Positions 592-21,260 of a DNA stretch of 28,722 nt are shown here, piece by piece (within the stretch, counting starts at the first letter, position 1; the number at the start of each line of letters is the position of its first letter). The stretch comes from a virus, in IMG/VR virus record IMGVR_UViG_3300042907_000507, positions 1 to 28,722 of that record; one strand, 5' to 3'. Position numbers and translations under genes: made by a program. The notes under the pieces are model-generated. The model was not told the DNA's origin. It saw nothing but the letters and a program-made list of their open reading frames with translations, and did no database searches.

Positions 592-2687
592 GTTTGCATT
601 ATTCGATAATAAGATACAGCCGTGCTATCTGCTCCCGATGTGTTCTGAACACAAAAAACGAAATACTTATCTACTGCCCAATTGATGTTGTAATTCGTCA
701 ATACATTTAACCCGATATCAGTAATCAATAAACTTGTCGCTGTTGGTATCTCTGTTACAGTTGCTGATTTAATATTTAATCTTCGCTCAAGCCTTGCCCC
801 TGAGGTAACATTTGAAGCGGTATAAGTTGCAATCAGTTGAGGCGAACCAACTAAGTCAGCCGTTCCGTTCACGTACACACGATAAACCACAGCACCACCA
901 GCACCAGTCTTATTCACCGTACCCCAATCAAGTTGAATGATATCGTTAGCTGCAAATGTGTTTGCTGCTATTAGTTGGGTTTTAGAAACCGTGTTCGTAT
1001 TAGTAGATGAAGCAGTTCCCGTGGTGGTATCTTTGAACACCGTCAAGGAAGTAATTGCGTTTATTTGAGTCTGAATATTGCTAGTCGCACCCTTGACATA
1101 ACTCAACTCTGTTAAACTTGGATAAGTCGCAACAGGCAATGATGCCAACACCCTTGCTGCGGTGAAGTATGCAATCTCATTAACCGTTCCGAACCCCGTT
1201 AACGCATCAACAGGAGTGCCGTCAAGGTTTAGCACCCATGAAGTGTAAGTGCCGCTACCTGTGTGATTCTTGATGTCCACAACAAGCGCACCAGTAGCAG
1301 CATTATAACTTGTTACCTCGCCATGCATATGATTTGAAACATTAAACACAACGAGAATCTCTTGCAGCGGAATGTAGCTTAAGTTAATATCGACAGTAAA
1401 ACTTTTTGAGCCATTACTTACGCTGTTAGAAGTTACCGATGAAGTCTTATACCTATCGGCTAACGAATTGATAATAGGCGCAGCAGGGTTAGTATTGTCA
1501 ACATTGATATTAATACCTGAGTTGACTGATGTAACTGTTCCGGTAGGAATAGTTGGCTTGTTCTTTATGAAGTCAAGTGCTGCGTTGTTCGCCTGTGTCC
1601 AATCAGACTGAATCTGAGCAGCAGGGATTGATGGCTTGTTCAGTATCTCACTTAGTCCACTAACAGAATTCCAATCAGCATTAACAGGAGCGGTGATGGT
1701 TGGCTTGTTGAGTATCTCAGATACACCACTAACAGAGTTCCAATCGGAATTAACCTGAGCCGCAGGTATTGATGGCTTGTTAAGTATCTGATTGTTGCCA
1801 CTCGTAGCATCCCAATCAGTAGGTCTTTCGATAGTCTGAAGCCCTGCTCCAAGGTTTGTCCAGTACGTTGCGTTGGTAGGTAGTATAGAATCGTTGTTTG
1901 CGATACATCGGTAGATATTCCCGTTGTACCATACCGTGTTCCCTATCACATAACCGTTGCCTGTTACTGTAAGGTGGTCGGTTGAGAAAGCAATGGCTGT
2001 TGTTATGCCACCAACGCCACCGATAGCAACAAGGGGGTCGGCTACCGTTCCGTTTCCTGTTATCGTAACACCGTCAACAGCTACTTCGGTAAGGCAAGGA
2101 GTACACGGTTCGTAGTTCGGAGGTAGTGGTATCTCACCCGTTTCGCAGGTGTCATAACACCCATCATCGGCACTACTTACTATCTGAACATCAATGTCGA
2201 TACTTACACAAGCCCACTCGTAGTTCTGAGTCAATGACTTAATCTCGTTGGCATATCCGTTAGGTATCACCTCGTATGACATCACCCCGATGGAAGCCTT
2301 GAACCCGAAGTCCATGCCCGATGTCAGCTTGAACACACGGGAAGCAATCCAATCTTGAGCATCTTCTGAGTCGCATGGAAGGTGTGACTTGCGGACAACA
2401 GCGTAAGCCGTCAGAGGGAAGGTTGTCTGATACATCTTCTTGCAGCCTGACACCTTCAAAGAGTCAATGATGCTGATGCTTACCTTACCTCTTTTCGCCC
2501 AGAAGATTGTTCCCTGCTTCGCATCGAAGTTGGTTACTACCTCGCCTTGTCCATCACCGATGTAGTGAATCCATGCCTTGTCGTTTCCGTTGGCATTGAG
2601 TTCACATAGCCCGAACTGCTTATCGAAGATATTAGCAACTGCAATGCGTTGATTTAAACGTCTTATTATCTCAGATAGTAGATTCAT
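588..2687 (-). CDS. Large fibre/appendage protein with neck-like N-domain and DWNSxSG/ILNKP repeats (699 aa)
   Basis: The start ATG 2685-2687 shares a base with the TAA of the preceding gene (TAATG). Residues 1 to about 175 form a globular domain that may anchor the protein in the virion. A Cys-rich linker follows at about 177-198 (CYDTC, CTPC). Residues 250-281 (VWYNGNIYRC, then P and a YW pair) look like the small carbohydrate-binding module of chitin-binding type, Y/W rich with one Cys. Four imperfect repeats at residues 289-382 carry D-W-N-S-x-S-G and I-L-N-K-P, as in many phage fibres. The rest is Ser/Thr/Asn-rich beta-type sequence. It probably binds host surface polysaccharide. The fusion of an N-terminal virion domain to a fibre is inferred from layout. 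Confidence 0.75.
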   Translation of the reverse strand: MNLLSEIIRRLNQRIAVANIFDKQFGLCELNANGNDKAWIHYIGDGQGEVVTNFDAKQGTIFWAKRGKVSISIIDSLKVSGCKKMYQTTFPLTAYAVVRKSHLPCDSEDAQDWIASRVFKLTSGMDFGFKASIGVMSYEVIPNGYANEIKSLTQNYEWACVSIDIDVQIVSSADDGCYDTCETGEIPLPPNYEPCTPCLTEVAVDGVTITGNGTVADPLVAIGGVGGITTAIAFSTDHLTVTGNGYVIGNTVWYNGNIYRCIANNDSILPTNATYWTNLGAGLQTIERPTDWDATSGNNQILNKPSIPAAQVNSDWNSVSGVSEILNKPTITAPVNADWNSVSGLSEILNKPSIPAAQIQSDWTQANNAALDFIKNKPTIPTGTVTSVNSGININVDNTNPAAPIINSLADRYKTSSVTSNSVSNGSKSFTVDINLSYIPLQEILVVFNVSNHMHGEVTSYNAATGALVVDIKNHTGSGTYTSWVLNLDGTPVDALTGFGTVNEIAYFTAARVLASLPVATYPSLTELSYVKGATSNIQTQINAITSLTVFKDTTTGTASSTNTNTVSKTQLIAANTFAANDIIQLDWGTVNKTGAGGAVVYRVYVNGTADLVGSPQLIATYTASNVTSGARLERRLNIKSATVTEIPTATSLLITDIGLNVLTNYNINWAVDKYFVFCVQNTSGADSTAVSYYRIMQT
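1542..1823 (-). repeat. Four imperfect coding repeats (DWNSxSG ... ILNKP) in the fibre gene
   Basis: The repeats encode residues about 289-382 of the 699-aa fibre: PTDWDATSG-ILNKPSIPAAQ, SDWNSVSG-EILNKPT, ADWNSVSG-EILNKPSIPAAQ and SDWTQANN-IKNKPTIP. Units are roughly 24 codons. The two middle copies are nearly the same over the DWNSVSG and SEILNKP cores, and copies one and three share SIPAAQ. Such repeats are usual in trimeric fibre shafts or collars and can change copy number by recombination. Confidence 0.85.
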
Positions 2688-3265
2688 TACAGACCTTTGT
2701 TGAACGCCTCTGTGATGAACTCAGATAGCGATGTTTCGAACTCTTTAATCTCTTCGTTAGTCGGCACGAAGATAGCACCGTATTTGTTTTCCAATCCTTC
2801 AACTTTGCCTTCTTCAGAAGATTGAATTGTAATCGATGATTCAAGCCCGTTGTTCTCTATTCCGCTACTCTGAAACCCGAACTTCAACGCTCCCGTTAAT
2901 TGAAGTGGAAGGTTTGCCGATGTCTGACTCTTTAACTGAGCATAGCCATTCGGAAAATACAAAGATTCAATTGGTTTCCCTTTTTTAGCCTTTCCGCTTT
3001 TGGTAGTAGAATTAGACTTGCCAAATTTGAATGATGAAGGTGCGTTCTTGACCGCCGATGGCGAAACGTAGATAGGAGTCGTTGAGTAAGGCACAGTCGG
3101 TAGTTTATCCCCTTCCGAATTACTCCCTCCCGTTGTTCCCGTACCGAAGATTCTAAGAAACATAAGCCCCTTCAAATCTTCGACAGCACGGTACAATGGG
3201 ATGAAGTTACTTCTCCACGCATCCGTTATAGCCTGTGACTTCTGTTCGAACTCCTTAACTGTCAT
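2687..3265 (-). CDS. Head-tail connector / neck-type protein (192 aa)
   Basis: The start ATG 3263-3265 overlaps the upstream TGA (ATGA). The protein begins with a helical stretch (VKEFEQKSQAITDAWRS), has a low-complexity Ser/Gly/Lys linker in the middle (about residues 65-100), and ends with a domain carrying PNGYAQLK, L-T-G-A-L-K-F-G-F and NKYGAIFVPTNEE. The order 'L-T-G-x-L', a strand, then 'YGxIFxPxxEE' is what is seen in phage tail-completion and morphogenesis proteins of the HK97 gp10 or gp13-like kind. Its place after capsid genes and before fibres fits a neck or tail-completion role. Assignment rests on motif pattern and location. Confidence 0.6.
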   Translation of the reverse strand: MTVKEFEQKSQAITDAWRSNFIPLYRAVEDLKGLMFLRIFGTGTTGGSNSEGDKLPTVPYSTTPIYVSPSAVKNAPSSFKFGKSNSTTKSGKAKKGKPIESLYFPNGYAQLKSQTSANLPLQLTGALKFGFQSSGIENNGLESSITIQSSEEGKVEGLENKYGAIFVPTNEEIKEFETSLSEFITEAFNKGL

Positions 3266-9511: not shown

Positions 9512-10099
9512 TCACGCAAAGTTACGATGTAAGATGGACAATCCCCGACCTTCGGGAGTGTTTAATGTAACCGTGTTATAACCGAATGCTTTAGCATATT
9601 CAACCAAGTGGCGAGGGTCATCTAAGTGAATAGTGTCATGGTACACGAACACACCGCCACGAGAGAGCAACCGCTCCAATACCTTGAACTCAGGTAAGAT
9701 GTTATCCCACGAATGGTCACCGTCAACGAAGATAAGGTCGAAGTGGTTCGGCATCATCTTAGAACACTTATTGATTGAAGTACCTAAGACGAACTCAATC
9801 ACCTTCCCGTTGGCGTTCTCCATCATCGCCTTAGTATCTTCTACCCTGTAATCGTTGATATCAACTCCGATATACTGACCGCCATTAGGTAGTGCCTCAA
9901 TGATAGACTTCGTTGTCTCACCTTCGAATACACCTACTTCTAGCACGGTCATCACACGGCTCATCTTAATCAACGACCCGATGAACTTACCTACCTCGTC
10001 TTCCGAGTTCCATCCATGCCGTGCCACCTCATTGAATGTAGGGGTGGTGACAATAGTATCCTTCTTAGGTCTTCCGACCTTCTTCTTATCGTTTAGCAT
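9512..10099 (-). CDS. Class I SAM-dependent methyltransferase (195 aa)
   Basis: Visible Rossmann-type methyltransferase motifs are: motif I V-L-E-V-G-V-F-E-G-E-T-T (52-63), the strand-2 acid in Y-I-G-V-D-I-N-D (76-83), D-L-I-F-V-D-G-D-H-S-W (121-131) and G-G-V-F-V-Y-H-D-T (148-156). This order fits the Methyltransf_24 type, often found with glycan genes. The N-terminus has V-G-R-P-K-K, a basic hook. I use ATG 10097-10099, which overlaps the glycosyltransferase by 14 nt; an upstream ATG at 10141 would overlap by 56 nt. It probably acts with the neighbouring glycosyltransferase on a sugar or virion protein; this pairing is inference. Confidence 0.8.
   Translation of the reverse strand: MLNDKKKVGRPKKDTIVTTPTFNEVARHGWNSEDEVGKFIGSLIKMSRVMTVLEVGVFEGETTKSIIEALPNGGQYIGVDINDYRVEDTKAMMENANGKVIEFVLGTSINKCSKMMPNHFDLIFVDGDHSWDNILPEFKVLERLLSRGGVFVYHDTIHLDDPRHLVEYAKAFGYNTVTLNTPEGRGLSILHRNFA
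9517..9524 (-). promoter_or_regulatory. Putative -7 box TAACTTTG, 6 nt before the microprotein ATG
   Basis: TAACTTTG lies in the last codons of the methyltransferase gene and is followed by CGTGAC and ATG. It would start the head-gene transcript (microprotein, portal and onward). Since it is inside coding sequence the match alone is weak; the repeated spacing to an ATG seen at other sites adds support. Confidence 0.35.
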
Positions 10100-11036
10100 C
10101 AGCGTGTTTTTGTTCTGTGATTCGTACAATAGTAAACTCATGGTGAAGATTAGCCTTCCTCATGTTAATCTTTAACAGCCTATCAAGCCACTCGGTATAA
10201 AACCGTGGTGTAAATCCTGCACCTCCGTAGTATGACTGAAGGTAGAAGTTATCTGTCACCTCTTGATATGACATACCTCGTTGCATGGCGAAGTGAATGA
10301 ATCCACTCTCTGAGCCATTAATCCTTCCTTCGTTCTTATAGCTTGGGTCAATGCCTGCTATACAAAGAGCGATGTTCATGTATAACTCATCAGGCTGCCC
10401 ACCGCCCCACTTCATCCGTAGCTTCTCCGTTGGTATCTGATTGGTCGTGTATAGTGTCTTAGCTATGTCGTACAGCTTGGCAGCCTCCTTGCCCATCGTG
10501 ATGAACTGAAGGCTGCTATTGATAGCTGGAAGGATTGCATCAGCATCTAGTTTATACCGTTCCCAAATATCATCAGCCCAAGCCCATTGCATCGATGGTA
10601 TCGCTCTCCCTTGGTCAATGGTATGATATCCTACGCAATGACTAAGGTAAGGCTTGCCCGTTGCTATCAGTTCGTGCAATAGCGGTGTGATATCCTTCAA
10701 CGCCACCGCATCAACGTCAAGGTATAGATTATGTTTATACGGTAGGTAATCGTAGAGGCTCACTTTAAGTTTGCCTGGATCAAATTTACCGTCCGTGAAA
10801 AGGTCGTTAGTGTCAACCTCTCTTATCTCGTCAATGAAACGATGAAGGTCGCACGATGAAGTAGCGGTAACGTAGTTGTCAACGAATAGCGTAATAGGTA
10901 GGCTAGGGTTGAATGACTTAATGCTGAAAGCTAAGTTATAAGCAGCCCAATAGTAGCCCCGTTTGCCGAATGCAAATAGCACCACCCCTGCCGAAGTAGG
11001 AGTAGTGCCATCGTTAGTAGTTAAGTCGTTAGTCAT
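10086..11036 (-). CDS. GT-A type glycosyltransferase (GT8-like) (316 aa)
   Basis: The start is ATG 11034-11036, overlapping the TGA of the preceding gene (TGATG). After a short polar N-terminus comes a beta-strand/helix pattern (AGVVLFAFGKRGYYWAAYNL, LPITLFVDN). Next is N-L-Y-L-D-V-D-A-V-A-L, a DxD metal/nucleotide-sugar site (D107, D109), as in GT8 and related GT-A enzymes. Later W-G-G-G-Q-P-D-E-L-Y-M-N (W-x-x-x-x-P-D-E) matches the acceptor or catalytic region of such enzymes. A transferase in a tail/head operon may decorate a virion protein or change host surface sugars; the sugar donor and target cannot be read from sequence. No signal peptide is seen. Confidence 0.75.
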   Translation of the reverse strand: MTNDLTTNDGTTPTSAGVVLFAFGKRGYYWAAYNLAFSIKSFNPSLPITLFVDNYVTATSSCDLHRFIDEIREVDTNDLFTDGKFDPGKLKVSLYDYLPYKHNLYLDVDAVALKDITPLLHELIATGKPYLSHCVGYHTIDQGRAIPSMQWAWADDIWERYKLDADAILPAINSSLQFITMGKEAAKLYDIAKTLYTTNQIPTEKLRMKWGGGQPDELYMNIALCIAGIDPSYKNEGRINGSESGFIHFAMQRGMSYQEVTDNFYLQSYYGGAGFTPRFYTEWLDRLLKINMRKANLHHEFTIVRITEQKHADAKR

Positions 11037-11575
11037 CAAACGAAGATTCCAGCAGGTGCAGGTAACTGAGCAGGGATAGACTTAGAACGCCATGCGAAGG
11101 TTACCTCGTAGCGTTGTAGTTCGTTGTTCTGCTCAGGGATGATGAACTGTGCGGAGGTAGTGATACCAACGGCAGGGTCAATCCATACAATCTTTCCTGA
11201 GTCGCAAGAGTAAGCCATTATCCAACCGATTCGTCTGTTGTTAACGTCATCCCAAAAGGTAGAGTTATCATCAGTAACGTTAGCATCGTAGAGCGTAGCG
11301 GTACGGTCTTCGTTGATACGGATTGGAGTACCGCAACCGATAGGTGAGTCAACCGTTACTGGCGAGCCAGCAGGGAGAGCAAATCGGATGTCTTCGATAA
11401 GTTTAGCTGTTCCAGCATCAAGCAAAGCCTGTATCTCAACTGCTGAAGATGGGTCTGCTACGGTCGTTCCGCAAGCCCCGATGATGATAGCGGAGATACC
11501 GCCGAGTTTATACTCCCCACAGTTAACCAAATCATGGCTAAGTAGTGAGGAATCGCAATAAGATACGCATCCCAT
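11036..11575 (-). CDS. Tail structural protein, possibly tail tube (179 aa)
   Basis: The protein starts with M-G-C-V-S-Y-C and has L-V-N-C-G-E-Y-K-L-G-G-I-S-A-I-I-I-G, then strands such as R-I-G-W-I-M-A-Y-S and L-Q-R-Y-E-V-T-F-A-W-R. A short beta-rich protein of this size next to large tail proteins could be the major tail tube protein, although it lies downstream rather than upstream of the tape measure. It has its own promoter-like box (TATCTTTG) and a TAAACAACT leader motif just before the ATG, which suggests high expression and fits a major virion protein. It is followed by the glycosyltransferase with a TGATG junction. The exact role is not proven. Confidence 0.55.
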   Translation of the reverse strand: MGCVSYCDSSLLSHDLVNCGEYKLGGISAIIIGACGTTVADPSSAVEIQALLDAGTAKLIEDIRFALPAGSPVTVDSPIGCGTPIRINEDRTATLYDANVTDDNSTFWDDVNNRRIGWIMAYSCDSGKIVWIDPAVGITTSAQFIIPEQNNELQRYEVTFAWRSKSIPAQLPAPAGIFV

Positions 11576-15292: not shown

Positions 15293-17988
15293 TGGTATCT
15301 TGAATCTTTAGAGTTTACATTGATAACCATAGGACGTTTCTTTAGGTTCTTGTTGATGCTTCTCAATTCACTCTCCATGCTCCGGCTGTCTAACTTAGCG
15401 TTAACCGTTACACCATCGCTGCGGCGTTTATCTTGCATCATGTAGGACATAACAGCAGGACGAACATAACGCTCGTCAATCAGCTTCTTAAAGGCAGCAG
15501 ATGAAGTATTCATAGCGTTGAGTTCTTGGCGGTGCTTGACAGACTGCCCACGGTTGACGATGTACTCATCACGTTCCGCTTCTATCATAGTACCTCCTTG
15601 GCTATGTCGTTGACCGCCTACTACACCGCCTCGCTCGAACTTAGGAATCGGCTTGGCTGCAATAACTGCAATCTGAGCAGCACCAGCTATAGCCATGATA
15701 ATCTTTAGTGGGATTGTCTTAGCTGCCGCTACGGCTGCTGCACTACCTATGATGGCGTTGAATAGAGCAAGTGCCTTGTCCTGCTTCGCTTGTCTTGTCT
15801 TCTCAGCAGCAATGACCATGGCTGTTCTTTTAGCTAATGCAGTCCTTTGTCGTTCCTTCTGACGTTCTGTTTCTGTCGAATCATTAATAGCCTTTAACTC
15901 AGCATCACTACTGGCGGTTATGTCAGCTATCCTGTTTTCGCTTTGTTGTTTACTAAGTTCGTTTAATGAAGAAAATGCAGAACTAACAGCTTCGGCATAT
16001 TGAAATATAATTTCAATTCGTTTCTGAAACTCTTCCTTTTGTTTAGCAGTAATATCCTCCTCCTCTTTCTTTTCGTCATCAGCTTGCTTCTTCTTAACCT
16101 TTTTTCGGTATTCTATCAACTTAGCTGCGTTAGATTGGCTCTCGTTAATGTTCTTAAGCTCGTCCTCAACAATACCATCGTCAATAGCTTTGATGCCATC
16201 AGCGTAGTCCTGTTGGGCTTTAATTTGCTTTTGTTTAATGTCTTCGGTTAGCGTAACTATATCCTCTCCTGCTTTTTTACGGGTAAAGAACTCAAGTTTT
16301 AATCCTGCTGTTGTTTCTGCAAGTTCTGCCTCTAGGACAGACTTCTTAGCTGCCACCGAGTCTTTGTCTACTTGAAGTCTGTTGCTTGCGTATAACTTAT
16401 CAATGGCTGCTACCCTAGCAGCAGAGGCAAGGGCTATCTCTTCTGCTGACTTTGTTTTGTCTTTTATGTTTTTAAGTCGCTCCTGTTCTGCTTTCTTTTT
16501 TTCGTTAGTTTCTTCTTGGTCAATAATAGCAATGTCTGTTTGTAGCTTTTTAGTTGCTACATTTTTATAATCAACAAACCCTTGTTCTAGTGCTATCTTC
16601 CTACTGTTTACTTCGTTGTAGTTTTTAAGGTCTTGTTCAAGTCTGCCCTTTGATATATTAACAAAAGATTTATTTCTTTGATTTGAATCTTTATCATACT
16701 GCTCTTGATTCTCGCTTAACCTCTTACGTGACTCACTTACAATTTTAGCAAGTTCCTTTTCTTTTTGTACAATATCTGAATACTCAATAATCCTTTGACC
16801 GTTAGCTTTGAGTGCCTCTTCGTTTGCCTCTCTTGTTACTTTAGCACGATCCGCTGTTGATTGTGTTATCTTACCCTGTGATACCAATAGTCTTTCGTTA
16901 GATTCTACTAACTCACGATTCAATGCCGCAACATCTCCCTTTAATCCAATTATAGAAGCATCAGCATCATCAAGCGATGCCTTAAAACTAGCAGCAGCTT
17001 GTTTACTATCCTCCCATGCCTTATACAACGCCACCAATCCAATAACCAACAGACCTATTCCCGTTCCTGCAATAGCTAACTTTAGCAAGTTTAGACTCTT
17101 GACCGTTGTCAAGGTAGCAACGGCAGCACCTTCTTCAGCACCAGCCAATACCTCGGTGGCGGTAGCAGCTGCATAGGTAGTGACTACCTTCTCCTTCATG
17201 AAGATATTCTGAAACGCTATCTTAGTCGCACCTTGTCCGGTGATTAAGTTAGCCGCCTCTTGTAATCCTGTGAGTAACGCTATCGCTCCCTGAGTTTGAG
17301 AGATTACCTTCTGTAAGTCTTTGTTCTCTTCACCGAATATAGCAATAGCACCTTGAGCGATTGAGAAGCCAGCAGCCAGCCCTTTGATTGCACCAACTGC
17401 CGCATCGAACTTAAACGTATCGGAAGCAAGCACCCGAACACGCTCGTTAGTGTCACCTATTTGGTCTTCTAACCGTGCCGCTTGGAATGCCGTCTCTTGA
17501 AATGCCTTGCTGTTTTCTTGACCCTGTGCTTCAAGGTTTGAGAGTTCAGCCTTTAGGTTCTTTAGTTGGGTCTTTAAACTCAACGCCGCCTTCTCTACCT
17601 TGCCCGTCTCGTTGCCGTAGACCGTTGTTCCTTTGGTTAGTTTATCAAGTTCCGCTCGTAGCTTGGCTGCGTCTTCAATGTTCTTCTTGTACGCCGCCGA
17701 CTGCTTCTGCCCTGCACTAAGTAACTTAATCTCTTCATCGTATAGCTTCTTGATGCCAGCCTTCAACGAATCGATACTCTTAACCTGACTATCGATAGCA
17801 GCCTTTACCTGACCGCTACTGAACGCCGCCGCAGCAGACTTACCAGCATCCTTAAATGAATCAGATGCCTTCTTCCCTGCTTCTGCTGCCTTATCACCAA
17901 TGACGGCTATATCTTTAGTGGCTTGCTTGACAGAAGCGTCTAACGAGTCGCTATCGGCGGTGAAGGTTACGAGTATATTAGCTGCCAC
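15283..17988 (-). CDS. Tail tape measure protein (901 aa)
   Basis: This is the longest gene of the window, long and mostly helical. Residues 1-200 contain Ala/Lys-rich coiled coil (KQATKDIAVIGDKAAEAGKK). A hydrophobic segment follows at about 299-322 (LLKLAIAGTGIGLLVIGLVALY). Long charged coiled coil runs through about 340-710. A second hydrophobic stretch (AIIGSAAAVAAAKTIPLKII) leads to the typical C-terminal tape-measure motif K-F-E-R-G-G-V-V-G-G, H-S-Q-G-G-T, E-R-D-E-Y-I-V-N-R-G. The protein sets tail length and is expected to be ejected with DNA. The start codon is GTG, overlapping the preceding gene by 11 nt. Confidence 0.9.
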   Translation of the reverse strand: MAANILVTFTADSDSLDASVKQATKDIAVIGDKAAEAGKKASDSFKDAGKSAAAAFSSGQVKAAIDSQVKSIDSLKAGIKKLYDEEIKLLSAGQKQSAAYKKNIEDAAKLRAELDKLTKGTTVYGNETGKVEKAALSLKTQLKNLKAELSNLEAQGQENSKAFQETAFQAARLEDQIGDTNERVRVLASDTFKFDAAVGAIKGLAAGFSIAQGAIAIFGEENKDLQKVISQTQGAIALLTGLQEAANLITGQGATKIAFQNIFMKEKVVTTYAAATATEVLAGAEEGAAVATLTTVKSLNLLKLAIAGTGIGLLVIGLVALYKAWEDSKQAAASFKASLDDADASIIGLKGDVAALNRELVESNERLLVSQGKITQSTADRAKVTREANEEALKANGQRIIEYSDIVQKEKELAKIVSESRKRLSENQEQYDKDSNQRNKSFVNISKGRLEQDLKNYNEVNSRKIALEQGFVDYKNVATKKLQTDIAIIDQEETNEKKKAEQERLKNIKDKTKSAEEIALASAARVAAIDKLYASNRLQVDKDSVAAKKSVLEAELAETTAGLKLEFFTRKKAGEDIVTLTEDIKQKQIKAQQDYADGIKAIDDGIVEDELKNINESQSNAAKLIEYRKKVKKKQADDEKKEEEDITAKQKEEFQKRIEIIFQYAEAVSSAFSSLNELSKQQSENRIADITASSDAELKAINDSTETERQKERQRTALAKRTAMVIAAEKTRQAKQDKALALFNAIIGSAAAVAAAKTIPLKIIMAIAGAAQIAVIAAKPIPKFERGGVVGGQRHSQGGTMIEAERDEYIVNRGQSVKHRQELNAMNTSSAAFKKLIDERYVRPAVMSYMMQDKRRSDGVTVNAKLDSRSMESELRSINKNLKKRPMVINVNSKDSRYQWQ

Positions 17989-18202
17989 GGTTTAGAGTTT
18001 TAATGAACGATTCAAATTTAAGGATAAATACCTCAACATCATTACGCATCATCTGATTGTATGCCAGTACATCACCGTCACACATCGCCATGACTTGCTC
18101 CTTTAGTCTCTCTTGGGCTTTGTTCGCCCTGTATCTCGGTGAGTATCCAGCAGGGTTAGTGCCGCTATAAGTTTGCGCTGCTGGTGTACGTTGTGTTCCC
18201 AT
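17978..18202 (-). CDS. Small protein before tape measure; possible gpT-like chaperone part (74 aa)
   Basis: The frame opens at ATG 18200-18202 inside the 212-aa gene and overlaps it by 100 nt; it lies in the -1 frame relative to that gene. The sequence has a Pro/Tyr-rich start (TPAAQTYSGTNPAGYSPRYR), then a helix (QERLKEQVMAMCDGDVLAYN). In lambda-like phages the chaperone gpG is extended by a -1 frameshift into gpGT in just this place before the tape measure. No classical X-XXY-YYZ slip site is seen, so independent initiation at its ATG is as likely as frameshifting. Confidence 0.55.
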   Translation of the reverse strand: MGTQRTPAAQTYSGTNPAGYSPRYRANKAQERLKEQVMAMCDGDVLAYNQMMRNDVEVFILKFESFIKTLNRGS

Positions 18203-18741
18203 AGCGTCTGAAAGTCTTCTGCTGACATAGACATTAAGGGAGTCAGCGGCTCGATACCCAAGCGAGTAAAAAAATCATGCGACCCCTCCTTGCACATCGC
18301 TTCGAACACTTCAAGTTTCTCCTTATGGATATCGGGGTTGATGATATACGGGTCTTCATCGTCACGCAGAACCCAAGTAGCAGCTATGTTAAGAAGCAAG
18401 TCACGATGTATAACCGTGTCCTGCCGTTCTCTTATGATGTGGATATAGGTAGCTATCAAGGCTGCGTTCTTCGGGTTACCTAACCCTGCGCTGAGTGCCT
18501 TCTCCATCTCGGTGAGTATGGATTCCATCTCACTACCCGATAGTCCACTACTCAACCGTTCAAGTAATGCCATCGACATACTGAATCGTTCAAGTGGCAT
18601 ATTGACTTCCTTTGGGAATCGTAGGTAGTTATGACCTTCGTGCGTGAATACCTTCACTAGGTTTAGCGTTGCCTGTTTGGCTTCCCACTTATTGAATAGA
18701 TGCCACCACTTGCGAGGCATTAATCTTCTGAATAACTTCAT
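18103..18741 (-). CDS. Putative tail assembly chaperone (gpG-like) (212 aa)
   Basis: The gene sits two positions before the tape measure. It is mainly helical (FSMSMALLERLSSGLSGSEMESILTEMEKAL; KLEVFEAMCKEGSHDFFTRLGIEPLTP). The last 100 nt overlap a -1 frame gene, as in gpG/gpGT pairs. No motif proves the role. The start ATG at 18741 overlaps the preceding gene by 53 nt; an internal ATG at 18720 (MPRKWW) would shorten the overlap to 32 nt and is equally possible. Its context, position and the overlap are the main evidence. Confidence 0.55.
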   Translation of the reverse strand: MKLFRRLMPRKWWHLFNKWEAKQATLNLVKVFTHEGHNYLRFPKEVNMPLERFSMSMALLERLSSGLSGSEMESILTEMEKALSAGLGNPKNAALIATYIHIIRERQDTVIHRDLLLNIAATWVLRDDEDPYIINPDIHKEKLEVFEAMCKEGSHDFFTRLGIEPLTPLMSMSAEDFQTLWEHNVHQQRKLIAALTLLDTHRDTGRTKPKRD

Positions 18742-18958
18742 CTAGCGTATTTAAGCAATATATCTTTTCTTGTGATTTAGTCTTTATCATCGTCCTATTC
18801 TCGTCCACCACCTCAACAACCATTTCAATATTGGCGATGCTGATAAGTATCTTGCAGTAGCCTGCCTCAACGGCACTAAGTTCACGAAGTTCTTCATCTT
18901 CGATTGTGCCGTCATATTGCATCAGCACCGATTTGACAACGATGAAGCTGCTCACCAT
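18689..18958 (-). CDS. Small hypothetical protein in tail module (89 aa)
   Basis: The ATG (18956-18958) overlaps the upstream TGA by 7 nt; a GTG three bases later would give a GTGA junction. The protein is acidic in the middle (YDGTIEDEELRELSAVEAG) with a beta-rich strand pair (CKILISIANIEMVVEVVDEN) and a short helical end. I do not recognise a family. Its place between the Cys-rich gene and the putative chaperone suggests a role in tail assembly. Confidence 0.65.
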   Translation of the reverse strand: MVSSFIVVKSVLMQYDGTIEDEELRELSAVEAGYCKILISIANIEMVVEVVDENRTMIKTKSQEKIYCLNTLDEVIQKINASQVVASIQ

Positions 18959-19158: not shown

Positions 19159-19502
19159 TAGTCCGTGAGTGTTATGATAGCAGGCTCGGTGTCTGACTGC
19201 ACGATAGAGAAGCTGATACAGGTGTATGCCACCTCGTCAACTGTAATCGTCTCATGCGCTCCGTTAACACCTCCAAGAGTGACGAATAGAGTATAGCCTT
19301 GTAGTGCATCGACTACGATACCTTCAACGGTTATGATACCTTCAGCATCGGACGTTGCAGGAAACGTCTGTACTCGCCCCGTTGCGTTGTGCTGAAGACA
19401 GACAAGGAACGAGGTGTCAGGTGTGACGGTCCAGAAGGTAAGCCCCGAAGCGCAGGACTCAATGTAAGTGCCTGCATTGTAACATAGTGAACATACGCTC
19501 AT
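19158..19502 (-). CDS. Cys-rich small beta protein after terminase (114 aa)
   Basis: The start ATG (19500-19502) overlaps the terL TGA as ATGA; longer starts lie inside terL and were not used. The N-terminus M-S-V-C-S-L-C-Y and then I-E-S-C give a small Cys cluster; the rest is beta-rich (SFLVCLQHNATGRVQTFPATSD, GYTLFVTLGG). Small proteins with C-x2-C-Y at the N-terminus and a beta body are typical of Bacteroidota phages near tail genes. It may be a virion or tail structural protein, with no catalytic motif. Confidence 0.65.
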   Translation of the reverse strand: MSVCSLCYNAGTYIESCASGLTFWTVTPDTSFLVCLQHNATGRVQTFPATSDAEGIITVEGIVVDALQGYTLFVTLGGVNGAHETITVDEVAYTCISFSIVQSDTEPAIITLTD

Positions 19503-20817
19503 AAGTGTCTCTTTAGAATTGCGTTGACAAAGTAACGGAAACAGTCGAGAAAATCGGCACGTTCCGCTAAGTTCTTTCTGTTGGATTTCATGATTCCCCC
19601 GTCTGAGTTGCATTGTACCTGCTTCGCATCGTAGACAAATCCCTTACACTTGACTGAGTTAACCTTGATGTCTAGCTTTCTTAGTGCGTTGTTGCAATCG
19701 ATACGGCTATTAAAGTGGGTAGGGTTCGCTGGAATGATTATCTGACTATCTCCTAGCTTCAACCGTCTCTTGATCTGCGTGTATGCTGAACTATTATCCC
19801 TCTGTTGGATGCTCCTACCGTTACCCATAGCATCACCCGTTATCCTCAGCAGCCCTATCGGGATGCCGTAAGACTCCACATGATCACAGAACGAGTCAAC
19901 GCTTCCCTTCTCTATCTTGATCTCGTCTACCACCACGCAGCCCCTCGCCGTCTGTTGGATGACGAGTGCGCATAATGGGTTGATGTTAAAATCGACTGAG
20001 ATAAACACAGGGATATGAGGATTGATGGCAAGGCTGTCATCTATGTGGTCGTTGTCATTCCATGCGTGCAGGAACGGGTTGGTGATATCGTCCATCACAT
20101 CCCAGTCACCCTCTACGAATCGCTGATACTGGATAGGTGGCAGTTCCTTCAATGACTCTAGGTACTCTTGACTGATATACGGGTTATCGGTGATGCGTGA
20201 GTTGATGTACTCCCATCGCTCCGGAAGCGTTCCCGTTCTCCATCGTTCATAGATAACAGACTTCACCCAGTTGTTAGCCGGGTTACAAGTGGCGAGACAA
20301 ACGATAGGAGGATTGCCGACCGCCTTGTTCCAGCTTCCTATCCTTTCCTGCACCTTGTAGAAGGTAGCCTCTTGAAGTTCGTTCACTTCGTCAAGCCCTG
20401 CACCGTTTACCTCAAGACCTCTGAACCTGTTCAAGTCCTTATCGTCATCAAATGATTCAGCCATGAAGATTAACTCACTACCGTTGATGAAGTGAACCAC
20501 GTTAGTATCCAAGTTCCATTTCTTAACGTACTTCTGCATTCCGTCATTAAGGATAGAAGAGAACGATGGGAAGGTTGTTCTTTTTAAATCAGGTAATGTC
20601 TTACGGATGATTACCCACCGTGAGCGAGGATAGAGTAGACAAAGCGAACAAAGTGTGAGTAGCAACCAATAGGTCTTGCCACCACGTTATTATTTCCCCC
20701 TCACATTTCTATGAGGGGCAGCCATCGTATAGCACCACCGAATACAATAACTCGCTTGTATCCGTTGATTGCCATATCGTAGGCTGTCGTTTGTCTTTTA
20801 GTTAGCTTGAAGCCCAT
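19499..20817 (-). CDS. terL: Large terminase ATPase/nuclease, gene split in its P-loop by a 41-nt insertion
   Basis: TerL packages phage DNA: an ATPase drives it and a nuclease cuts it. The start ATG (20815-20817) shares a base with the terS TAA. The first 31 codons end F-G-G-A-I-R. In another frame, after a 41-nt insert, the sequence continues G-G-K-T-Y-W, giving the P-loop GGAIRGGKT if joined. Joined length is 425 aa, normal for the family. Joined numbering: Walker B G-L-D-E (D129, E130), coupling motif C-N-P-A-N-N (about 164-169), RNase H-type nuclease acids D262 (S-V-D-F-N) and D315 (T-G-D-A-M-G), and a late acid in A-D-F-L-D-C. Unjoined, the first frame stops at TGA 20701-20703 after 38 codons. 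Everything else looks intact, so the gene is probably functional. Confidence 0.85.
20685..20725 (-). other. 41-nt hairpin-bearing insertion in the terL P-loop (bypass candidate)
   Basis: The insert lies between direct repeats ACG, one ending at 20726, the second at 20685-20687. It holds a perfect 7-bp stem CCCCTCA / TGAGGGG (20712-20718 with 20697-20703) and an 8-nt loop. Upstream frame: CGA, then 7 sense codons and TGA. Downstream frame: two TAA stops directly before CGT. Only a jump from CGA to CGT restores the P-loop; both codons are read by the inosine-containing tRNA-Arg (ICG). This layout resembles the coding gap in T4 gene 60 (take-off, hairpin, matched landing). Not demonstrated. Confidence 0.7.
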
Positions 20818-21260
20818 TACTCTTTATCTCCCTCCGTTCTAATTATTATTAATGGTTCGGTGGTGGTTATGTTGGTATCTCCAAGGTTAGCCCATAACGC
20901 TCTCTGACGGTTAGCAAGCCAATGTTTAGCGGCCGCCGTATCAGATGGTAGTTCTTTCTTCAAGTCTACCACATCACCATCCCTTGTTAATGCCTGCTCA
21001 ACTACCGTTACACCAATCGCTCGGTTATACATCGCCTTCGCTACTTTGCCGTCTGCTTCTTCTTTTCCCCGTGTTAATGACTTAAAAAAATCTGGGTAGT
21101 CTTTTTTCCAAGCGTTAAATGTTGGCTCACTAACTCCTATGATGTTGCACATTTGAACATCAGTAAGTCCAAGTAGTGCCATTTCGAACACTTGCTCGTT
21201 GAACGCTTCCTTGTACACAATCGGTCTTCCACGTTCTCTTTTATCGTTGTCCTCTGCCAT
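20817..21260 (-). CDS. terS: Terminase small subunit (147 aa)
   Basis: Starting ATG 21258-21260 follows a TAACTTTG box by only 4 nt. The N-terminal part (GRPIVYKEAFNEQVFEMALLG) leads to a helix-turn-helix at about residues 33-55 (TDVQMCNIIGVSEPTFNAWKKDYPDFF), as in Terminase_2-type small subunits, which bind the packaging site. A helix follows (GKEEADGKVAKAMYNRAIG), then a region with D-T-A-A-A-K-H-W-L-A-N-R, common in this family. The stop overlaps the terL start as TAATG, giving translational coupling. Family assignment is by motif pattern and synteny. Confidence 0.85.
   Translation of the reverse strand: MAEDNDKRERGRPIVYKEAFNEQVFEMALLGLTDVQMCNIIGVSEPTFNAWKKDYPDFFKSLTRGKEEADGKVAKAMYNRAIGVTVVEQALTRDGDVVDLKKELPSDTAAAKHWLANRQRALWANLGDTNITTTEPLIIIRTEGDKE

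Follow-up and report, generated by a model that had tools for sequence, protein, structure and literature searches.

How does a phage obtain a working large terminase subunit when the P-loop of that subunit is split by a gap with stops in both of the reading frames concerned? The question is raised by IMG/VR virus record IMGVR_UViG_3300042907_000507, of which the whole stretch of 28,722 nt (the window) was analysed. The terL gene of the window starts at an ATG on the minus strand (20817-20815), and its frame 0 translates as MGFKLTKRQTTAYDMAINGYKRVIVFGGAIR, then WLPLIEM, then a UGA stop; the reading frame after a CGT codon further on runs GGKTYWLLLTL... to a stop at 19499. The interruption falls within the TerL P-loop (FGGAI-CGA / 38 nt / CGT-GGKTYW). 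A previous reading of this locus, made from the sequence only, had proposed that the P-loop is interrupted between FGGAIR and GGKTYW by a 41-nt insert; translation and the relatives confirm the interruption, and the 41-nt insert is equivalent to our 38-nt gap because CG is repeated at both ends. The UGA that closes frame 0 and the UAA-UAA before the landing codon, also part of that proposal, are present at 20703-20701 and 20692-20687 (Table 1). Joined, the two segments give 31 + 394 = 425 aa, the length of the uninterrupted TerL of L010, and L010-L013, the nearest kin of the window (94-98% protein identity), have an uninterrupted terL. We consider it very probable that the interruption is an element for programmed ribosomal bypass, which belongs, or once belonged, to a mobile cassette.

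Table 1. Features of the terL locus in the window, with putative roles in bypassing where these are named.
Feature	Position	Strand	Basis and remarks
terS	20817..21260	(-)	phrog_309 terminase small subunit; ends on first base of terL ATG
terL first segment	20725..20817	(-)	31 codons, from the ATG through the takeoff codon; last residues VIVFGGAIR
5' stem-loop, 18 bp in two parts	20728..20776	(-)	covariation and window fold
Putative takeoff codon CGA (Arg)	20725..20727	(-)	CGA in 44/44 family A carriers
Gap presumed to be bypassed, 38 nt	20687..20724	(-)	relatives 36, 37 or 38 nt; 0/105 uninterrupted terL
Gap hairpin, 9 bp, GNRA (GAAA) tetraloop	20697..20718	(-)	98.7% of cells paired
UGA closing frame 0	20701..20703	(-)	sequence; 44/44 carriers have a frame-0 stop <=8 codons past takeoff
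UAA-UAA, landing frame, abutting landing codon	20687..20692	(-)	sequence
Putative landing codon CGT (Arg)	20684..20686	(-)	44 carriers: CGA 19, CGT 14, CGC 11
terL second segment	19499..20683	(-)	394 codons and stop, GGKTYW...; Terminase_3 and Terminase_6N

Protein searches with the window TerL and with a more distant TerL gave 160 loci, to which pattern scans added more. After removal of duplicates, the TerL family of the window (family A) comprised distinct genes of two kinds, 44 interrupted and 105 uninterrupted; most of the insert-bearing sequences were gathered with DNA patterns, and these counts are not frequencies. One and the same codon carries the insert in the first set and lacks it in the second, and the first segment is in frame and ends in the same residue in all insert-bearing relatives. 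The arginine codons that flank the gap, which the sequence-only reading had singled out in the window, are kept across the carriers, with a CGA takeoff throughout and a landing codon that is CGA, CGT or CGC (Table 1) and in none of the 44 AGA or AGG; at the same residue the 105 uninterrupted genes have CGT in 47, CGA in 41, AGA in 8, CGC in 7 and AGG in 2. As CGA and CGN had been required by two of the patterns, we ran a third scan that left both codons open, and it returned no family A exception to CGA takeoff and CGN landing. In bacterial decoding one tRNA-Arg, with anticodon ICG, reads CGU, CGC and CGA, and the landing codons are confined to this set.

The gap measures 38 nt in 24 carriers, 37 nt in one and 36 nt in 19, and since these lengths span all three frame classes, it is the matched codon that is preserved and not the frame. 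The 36-nt gaps are in frame, where a stop would otherwise be unneeded, and in each of the 19 a frame-0 stop is reached no more than two codons past takeoff. In the window's class the CGA takeoff is followed by UGG, and the frame-0 stop lies eight codons on. Among the 24 members of the 38-nt class, 19 have a landing-frame stop that abuts the landing codon and no start codon, and 5 have GTG or ATG in the landing frame, as does part of the 36-nt class. Inserts of the 36-nt class frequently terminate in ATTCG or ATACG, a repeat of the target, and some members of that class also have an Ile codon ahead of the landing Arg codon (ATA...ATT), so that an Ile hop would give the same protein; only an Arg hop is allowed in the 38-nt class and in the class with AAGTCC before CGT. 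In L093, L105 and L063, GGU-UAG or GGC-UAA follows takeoff, so that a copy of CGAGGY stands on each side of the gap; these may represent an older form of the 38-nt class.

The gap contains a hairpin, in the window CCCCUCAUA-GAAA-UGUGAGGGG, which had been recognised previously but taken as a stem of 7 bp, too short by two pairs and without its tetraloop. Across family A the loop is GAAA or GCAA, and the stem is kept by compensatory change: four pairs have changed on both sides, and such cells number 38, compared with 15 in shuffles and 0-4 in slid controls. The exact 22-nt hairpin of the window occurs in five other IMG/VR contigs, always at the same terL codon and with different flanks, and is therefore neither chance nor assembly error. 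The earlier suggestion that GAGGGG in the hairpin serves as an SD-like guide is unproven, the G's being accounted for by pairing with CCCC and such a role being inseparable from stem pairing. An Rfam search of the element gave no match at E values up to 1. A covariance model scanned over about 0.5 Mb gave one strong match per insert-bearing phage and none elsewhere. In L088, G+C-rich hairpins at 1334, 1934, 2500, 5666 and 8307 match only the stem part of the model; they lack the codon frame and were rejected as elements, being probably terminators or repeats of an unrelated phage.

Absent from the sequence-only reading were the 5' stem-loop, the HNH gene of the kin, the 36-, 37- and 38-nt classes and a second TerL family. 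The 5' stem-loop lies within coding sequence and spans positions -49 to -1, with its foot ending exactly at the takeoff codon. Among 26 distinct insert-bearing sequences 94.7% of its cells are paired, with compensatory changes, and pairing reaches 97% in the inner and 92% in the outer stem of carriers, against 62% and 49% in 89 distinct uninterrupted genes. One pair alternates between A-U, G-C, U-A and G-U, with an amino acid replacement resulting on one side and a synonymous site responding on the other. In addition, the fold energy has a mean z of -2.5 in carriers and +0.4 in non-carriers when compared with synonymous-codon redraws, and the RNA of the window from the 5' stem-loop through the landing codon (20776-20684) has a fold z of -6.0 against dinucleotide shuffles. 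The covarying stem-loop is linked to the insert, and the uninterrupted relatives are without it. A first fold, of a 101-nt piece, had paired exon 1 (the first terL segment; exon 2 is the second) with the 3' end of the gap; this was discarded, as the conserved solution is a separate 5' stem-loop. Among window-clade carriers, exon 1 shows 0.04-0.05 synonymous differences per codon and exon 2 about 0.3, against about 0.3 in both exons of the uninterrupted sisters of the clade, and recent transfer of exon 1 with the insert can also be the source of the low exon 1 value.

The codon-agnostic scan also returned a distant TerL (L237) with 36 nt inserted into its P-loop, YGGAI-RGGKTF. Arg is encoded there by AGG, and AUU and AUC form the matched pair, one codon upstream; the uninterrupted sisters L242 and L243 read ATT AGG, and most of the relatives returned by a search with the L237 TerL are uninterrupted. 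In bacterial decoding tRNA-Ile GAU reads both AUU and AUC. Hairpin forms in this second family (family B; L244, L247, L248, L251, L273, L274 and others) go from CGU to CGU or CGA over 36 nt; in them UAA or UAG immediately follows takeoff and the hairpin has 10 bp and a GNRA loop, and in all the 36-nt gaps of families A and B a stop comes directly or one codon past takeoff. Reduced forms of family B have no gap hairpin: L245 reads CGC/UGACAAA/CGA (7 nt), L257 and L258 read CGC/UGACAAAC/CGU (8 nt) and L275 reads CGC/UGA/CGU (3 nt), a form also found in L318, but there with other frameshifts. The matched pairs thus comprise CGA to CGU, CGA or CGC, CGU to CGU or CGA, CGC to CGA or CGU, and AUU to AUC. 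Mean z values for the fold of exon 1 in family B are -3.8 in hairpin forms, -3.4 in reduced forms and -1.5 in uninterrupted genes (four distinct sequences each). The CGC-UGA-CGU of L275 (about 1048-1056), in the terL P-loop and with flanking frames intact, is a candidate for a natural stop-hop, or for UGA readthrough adding one residue. In L245 a small ORF between terS and terL (456-635), with the Cys/His pattern CICGY...CFCHNCKKE, precedes the 7-nt hop form and occupies the place of the HNH gene in other carriers.

Several kin of the window carry, between terS and terL, an ORF with NUMOD4 and HNH_3 domains (phrog_59, HNH endonuclease) whose end overlaps the terL start; such ORFs were found in L015, L031, L071 and L244. 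Among the family A loci with enough upstream sequence, an HNH gene lies directly upstream of terL in 21 of 41 insert-bearing versus 0 of 104 uninterrupted loci (Fisher p = 2.6e-14). In family B the gene is intact in L244, and a C-terminal HNH remnant is present in L247/L248. The window itself has no HNH gene, the state expected after endonuclease loss. On a quick maximum-likelihood tree of exon 2, insert presence needs 19 changes, at least 16 of them forced by well-supported branches, which amounts to some 19 gains or losses of the element. Between paired sister phages, identity is 51-80% in exon 1 and mostly 88-95% in exon 2, and thus carriers received exon 1 and the insert together; in L154 exon 1 is largely native (82-84%).

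We propose the following course of bypassing. The sequences show conservation, covariation, codon matching, mobility, linkage to HNH genes and purifying selection; which tRNA acts, what the stem-loops do, where cleavage falls and the skip as such are what we infer from them. Ribosomes would translate the 31 codons of the first terL segment and halt at CGA, where the peptidyl-tRNA would let go; the ribosome would slide across the 38-nt gap, and the same tRNA-Arg(ICG) would re-pair with CGU, allowing translation to resume and to yield a single TerL of 425 aa whose P-loop is whole. As has been proposed for T4, refolding of the 5' stem-loop in its wake probably propels the ribosome onward, and the gap hairpin with its GNRA loop probably aids takeoff. 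No clear sign of the nascent-peptide signal that T4 requires, and no KKYK-like motif, was seen in exon 1, the peptide of which is similar in most carriers and different in L154. The neighbouring HNH homing endonuclease presumably cleaves the conserved P-loop sequence; the element interrupts that sequence, and the carrier would therefore be protected, while skipping would render the insertion harmless. In the window, the endonuclease gene would have been lost and the element would have remained. Bypass had been the interpretation of the sequence-only reading too, and it finds support in the same-codon presence and absence of the insert, the covarying stem, the kept codons and the purifying selection considered below.

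Could the interruption instead be an assembly error, or terL a pseudogene with a hairpin that is junk? Stops or frameshifts do occur in exon 2 of a few carriers (L080, L106, L297, L315, L318 and L319), which are either low-quality contigs or decaying copies; within family A, exon 2 is uninterrupted in 42 of the 44 carriers, L080 having one stop and L106 being frameshifted. However, the element sits at one codon in dozens of contigs from many metagenomes, its stems covary, and eight of nine insert-bearing pairs differ in exon 2 by 38-103 synonymous and only 1-6 nonsynonymous codons: 57/4 between the window and L004, and 103/4, 77/6, 72/6, 61/4, 38/1, 77/3 and 89/2 in others, with L028/L031 at 95/17. 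So few nonsynonymous changes indicate that selection maintains a functional terminase here, as the sequence-only reading had supposed, and by recurrence and purifying selection together we excluded this explanation; its probability is negligible, and for the family as a whole it is already refuted. The same selection weighs against the idea that the matched codons reflect target-site duplication only (ATNCG...ATNCG), with expression lost and the carrier surviving otherwise. The frequent ATTCG or ATACG ends of the 36-nt-class inserts, which repeat the target, would fit such a duplication, but no ATNCG repeat exists in the class that has AAGTCC before CGT, and only carriers retain the 5' stem-loop within their coding sequence, which makes this reading extremely unlikely.

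Removal of the 36-38 nt from the mRNA, as a tiny intron or by other RNA processing with the stems as a recognition structure, would restore the P-loop just as well, and conserved stems do flank a precise joint. We nevertheless hold it to be unlikely, because it does not predict much of what is seen. Splicing needs neither matched synonymous codons nor a stop beside takeoff in in-frame gaps, it does not predict the shift of the pair to AUU-AUC where the Arg codon is AGG, and the 3-, 7- and 8-nt gaps (CGC-UGA...CGN) offer no stem for RNA processing to recognise. The element has no Rfam match, no conserved catalytic RNA core of a group I or II intron was found in the 38-nt gap, and the gap is far shorter than such introns. 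Alternatively, terL might be a split gene whose two polypeptides assemble into TerL, the second being made by reinitiation in or after the gap. Functional split phage genes are known (T4 gp39/gp60, Aeh1 nrdA; PMC2988022), and the GTG or ATG codons in the landing frame of part of the 36-nt class and of 5/24 of the 38-nt class would permit reinitiation there. In 19/24 of the 38-nt class, including the window, a stop abuts the landing codon and no start codon comes before the GGK lysine codon, the first in-frame TTG of the window lies behind that codon, and the break would fall inside the P-loop; a split gene is on these grounds very unlikely.

Programmed bypassing is best characterised by comparison with T4 gene 60, in which the takeoff and landing codons match, a stop and a hairpin with a stable tetraloop lie close to takeoff, and an HNH gene is adjacent; its 5' stem-loop is proposed to re-form behind the ribosome and so to propel it (PMC5009743, PMC3014915, PMC11194080). 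The terL element resembles it in having two ORFs across a non-coding gap, matched codons, a phage gene as its site, an adjoining HNH gene in the kin, a 5' stem-loop upstream of takeoff, a tetraloop hairpin after it and a stop near takeoff, and the T4 region, folded with the same tool, has the same two-hairpin layout. A stop immediately past takeoff stimulates bypassing in T4 and is no defining part of the functional class; in terL it stands there, or one codon later, in the 36-nt class and in family B, and eight codons on in the window's class. The two differ in that T4 skips 50 nt from GGA to GGA in a topoisomerase gene, whereas the terL element skips 36-38 or 3-8 nt in a P-loop, from Arg or Ile codons that are synonymous rather than always identical. 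The tetraloop is GNRA in terL and UUCG in T4, the takeoff codon lies between the stems in terL and in one of them in T4, and the terL element has no peptide like the KKYK of T4. Moreover, the T4 gap has been called unique among its relatives, but the terL element recurs in many lineages. Applied to T4 positions 2400-3000, our covariance model (R1) scored at most 5.6 bits, with nothing at the gap above 2.0, and in missing the T4 gap it provides no evidence of homology; a comparison with MobA at the protein level says little because MobA is a 37-aa defective fragment. The terL element thus appears to be built like T4 mobA/gene 60, with no evidence that it is homologous to it.

The mobA gene and the 50-nt bypass sequence of T4 reportedly form a mobile DNA cassette (Bonocora et al. 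2011, PNAS 108:16351, as cited in PMC10236363 and PMC8300805). In each case an HNH homing endonuclease accompanies a bypass insert that sits within a conserved, essential gene, and in each the endonuclease decays while the insert stays. In contrast to mobA, the terL-linked endonuclease is of the NUMOD4 + HNH_3 kind, lies between terS and terL and is intact in many kin, and its cassette is found in two TerL families with many transfers, cleavage being presumed. A candidate bypass, proposed to be UUA-dependent and regulatory, has been described in the terminase gene of Streptomyces phage Hau3 (PMC5009743, its ref. 161), and is similar in that bypass was proposed in a phage terminase gene; the passage on Hau3 in that review mentions no endonuclease cassette. 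The mitochondrial byp elements of Magnusiomyces are, like the terL element, short inserts in coding sequence that are skipped in translation; they occur in most genes, often with imperfect codon matches, and are context-independent (PMC5009743). According to the same 2016 review, no natural in-frame stop hopping was known, and it had been shown with constructs only (PMC5009743); the CGC-UGA-CGU of L275 and the CGC-UGA-CAAA(C)-CGN of L245 and L257 are similar to those synthetic stop-hops.

The carriers are likely phages of Bacteroidota, because the nearest named relatives, all at low identity, are Bacteroidota phages or a plasmid (Flavobacterium phage 11b, the portal of Croceibacter phage P2559S and Hymenobacter plasmid pHsw2); by the sample numbers, we would guess that they are of a freshwater type. 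Among cultured phages and plasmids there was no close carrier, and the TerL relatives of Flavobacterium phage FPSV-S1 and plasmid pHsw2 are annotated as single uninterrupted CDSs. A pattern scan of 84,980 cellular species gave one match, in Streptomyces (L107), which was taken as chance. No solved structure matched TerL by sequence. Elsewhere in the window the portal gene is recognisable, and three strongly overlapping minus-strand ORFs (17978-18202, 18103-18741 and 18689-18958) precede the likely tape measure gene, where a frameshifted tail assembly chaperone is usually encoded; no slippery heptamer was evident when 18060-18260 was inspected briefly. Within the structural gene cluster, ORFs at 9512-10141 and 10086-11039, both on the minus strand, appear by eye to be like a class I methyltransferase and a glycosyltransferase, respectively.

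To our knowledge, T4 gene 60 is almost the only proven programmed bypass in bacteria or phages, and its rules so far rest on one sequence. In the open-licence literature we found no description of the elements reported here, and a recent report may exist. It is likely, in our judgement, that bypassing is not a T4 oddity and instead constitutes a recurrent mobile strategy, in which an HNH endonuclease is combined with a self-neutralising skip element in the terL P-loop of at least two TerL families, with Arg or Ile takeoffs, gaps spanning 36-38 nt and, in reduced form, natural stop-hops over 3-8 nt in which the 5' stem-loop is retained and the gap hairpin absent. Dozens of natural variants, together with uninterrupted controls, show what covaries or stays fixed among stems, codons, stops and gap length. 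Such a comparative system makes it possible to test natural stop-hops, the minimum length of a bypass and the need for a nascent peptide, as well as how selfish endonucleases neutralise the damage that they themselves cause.
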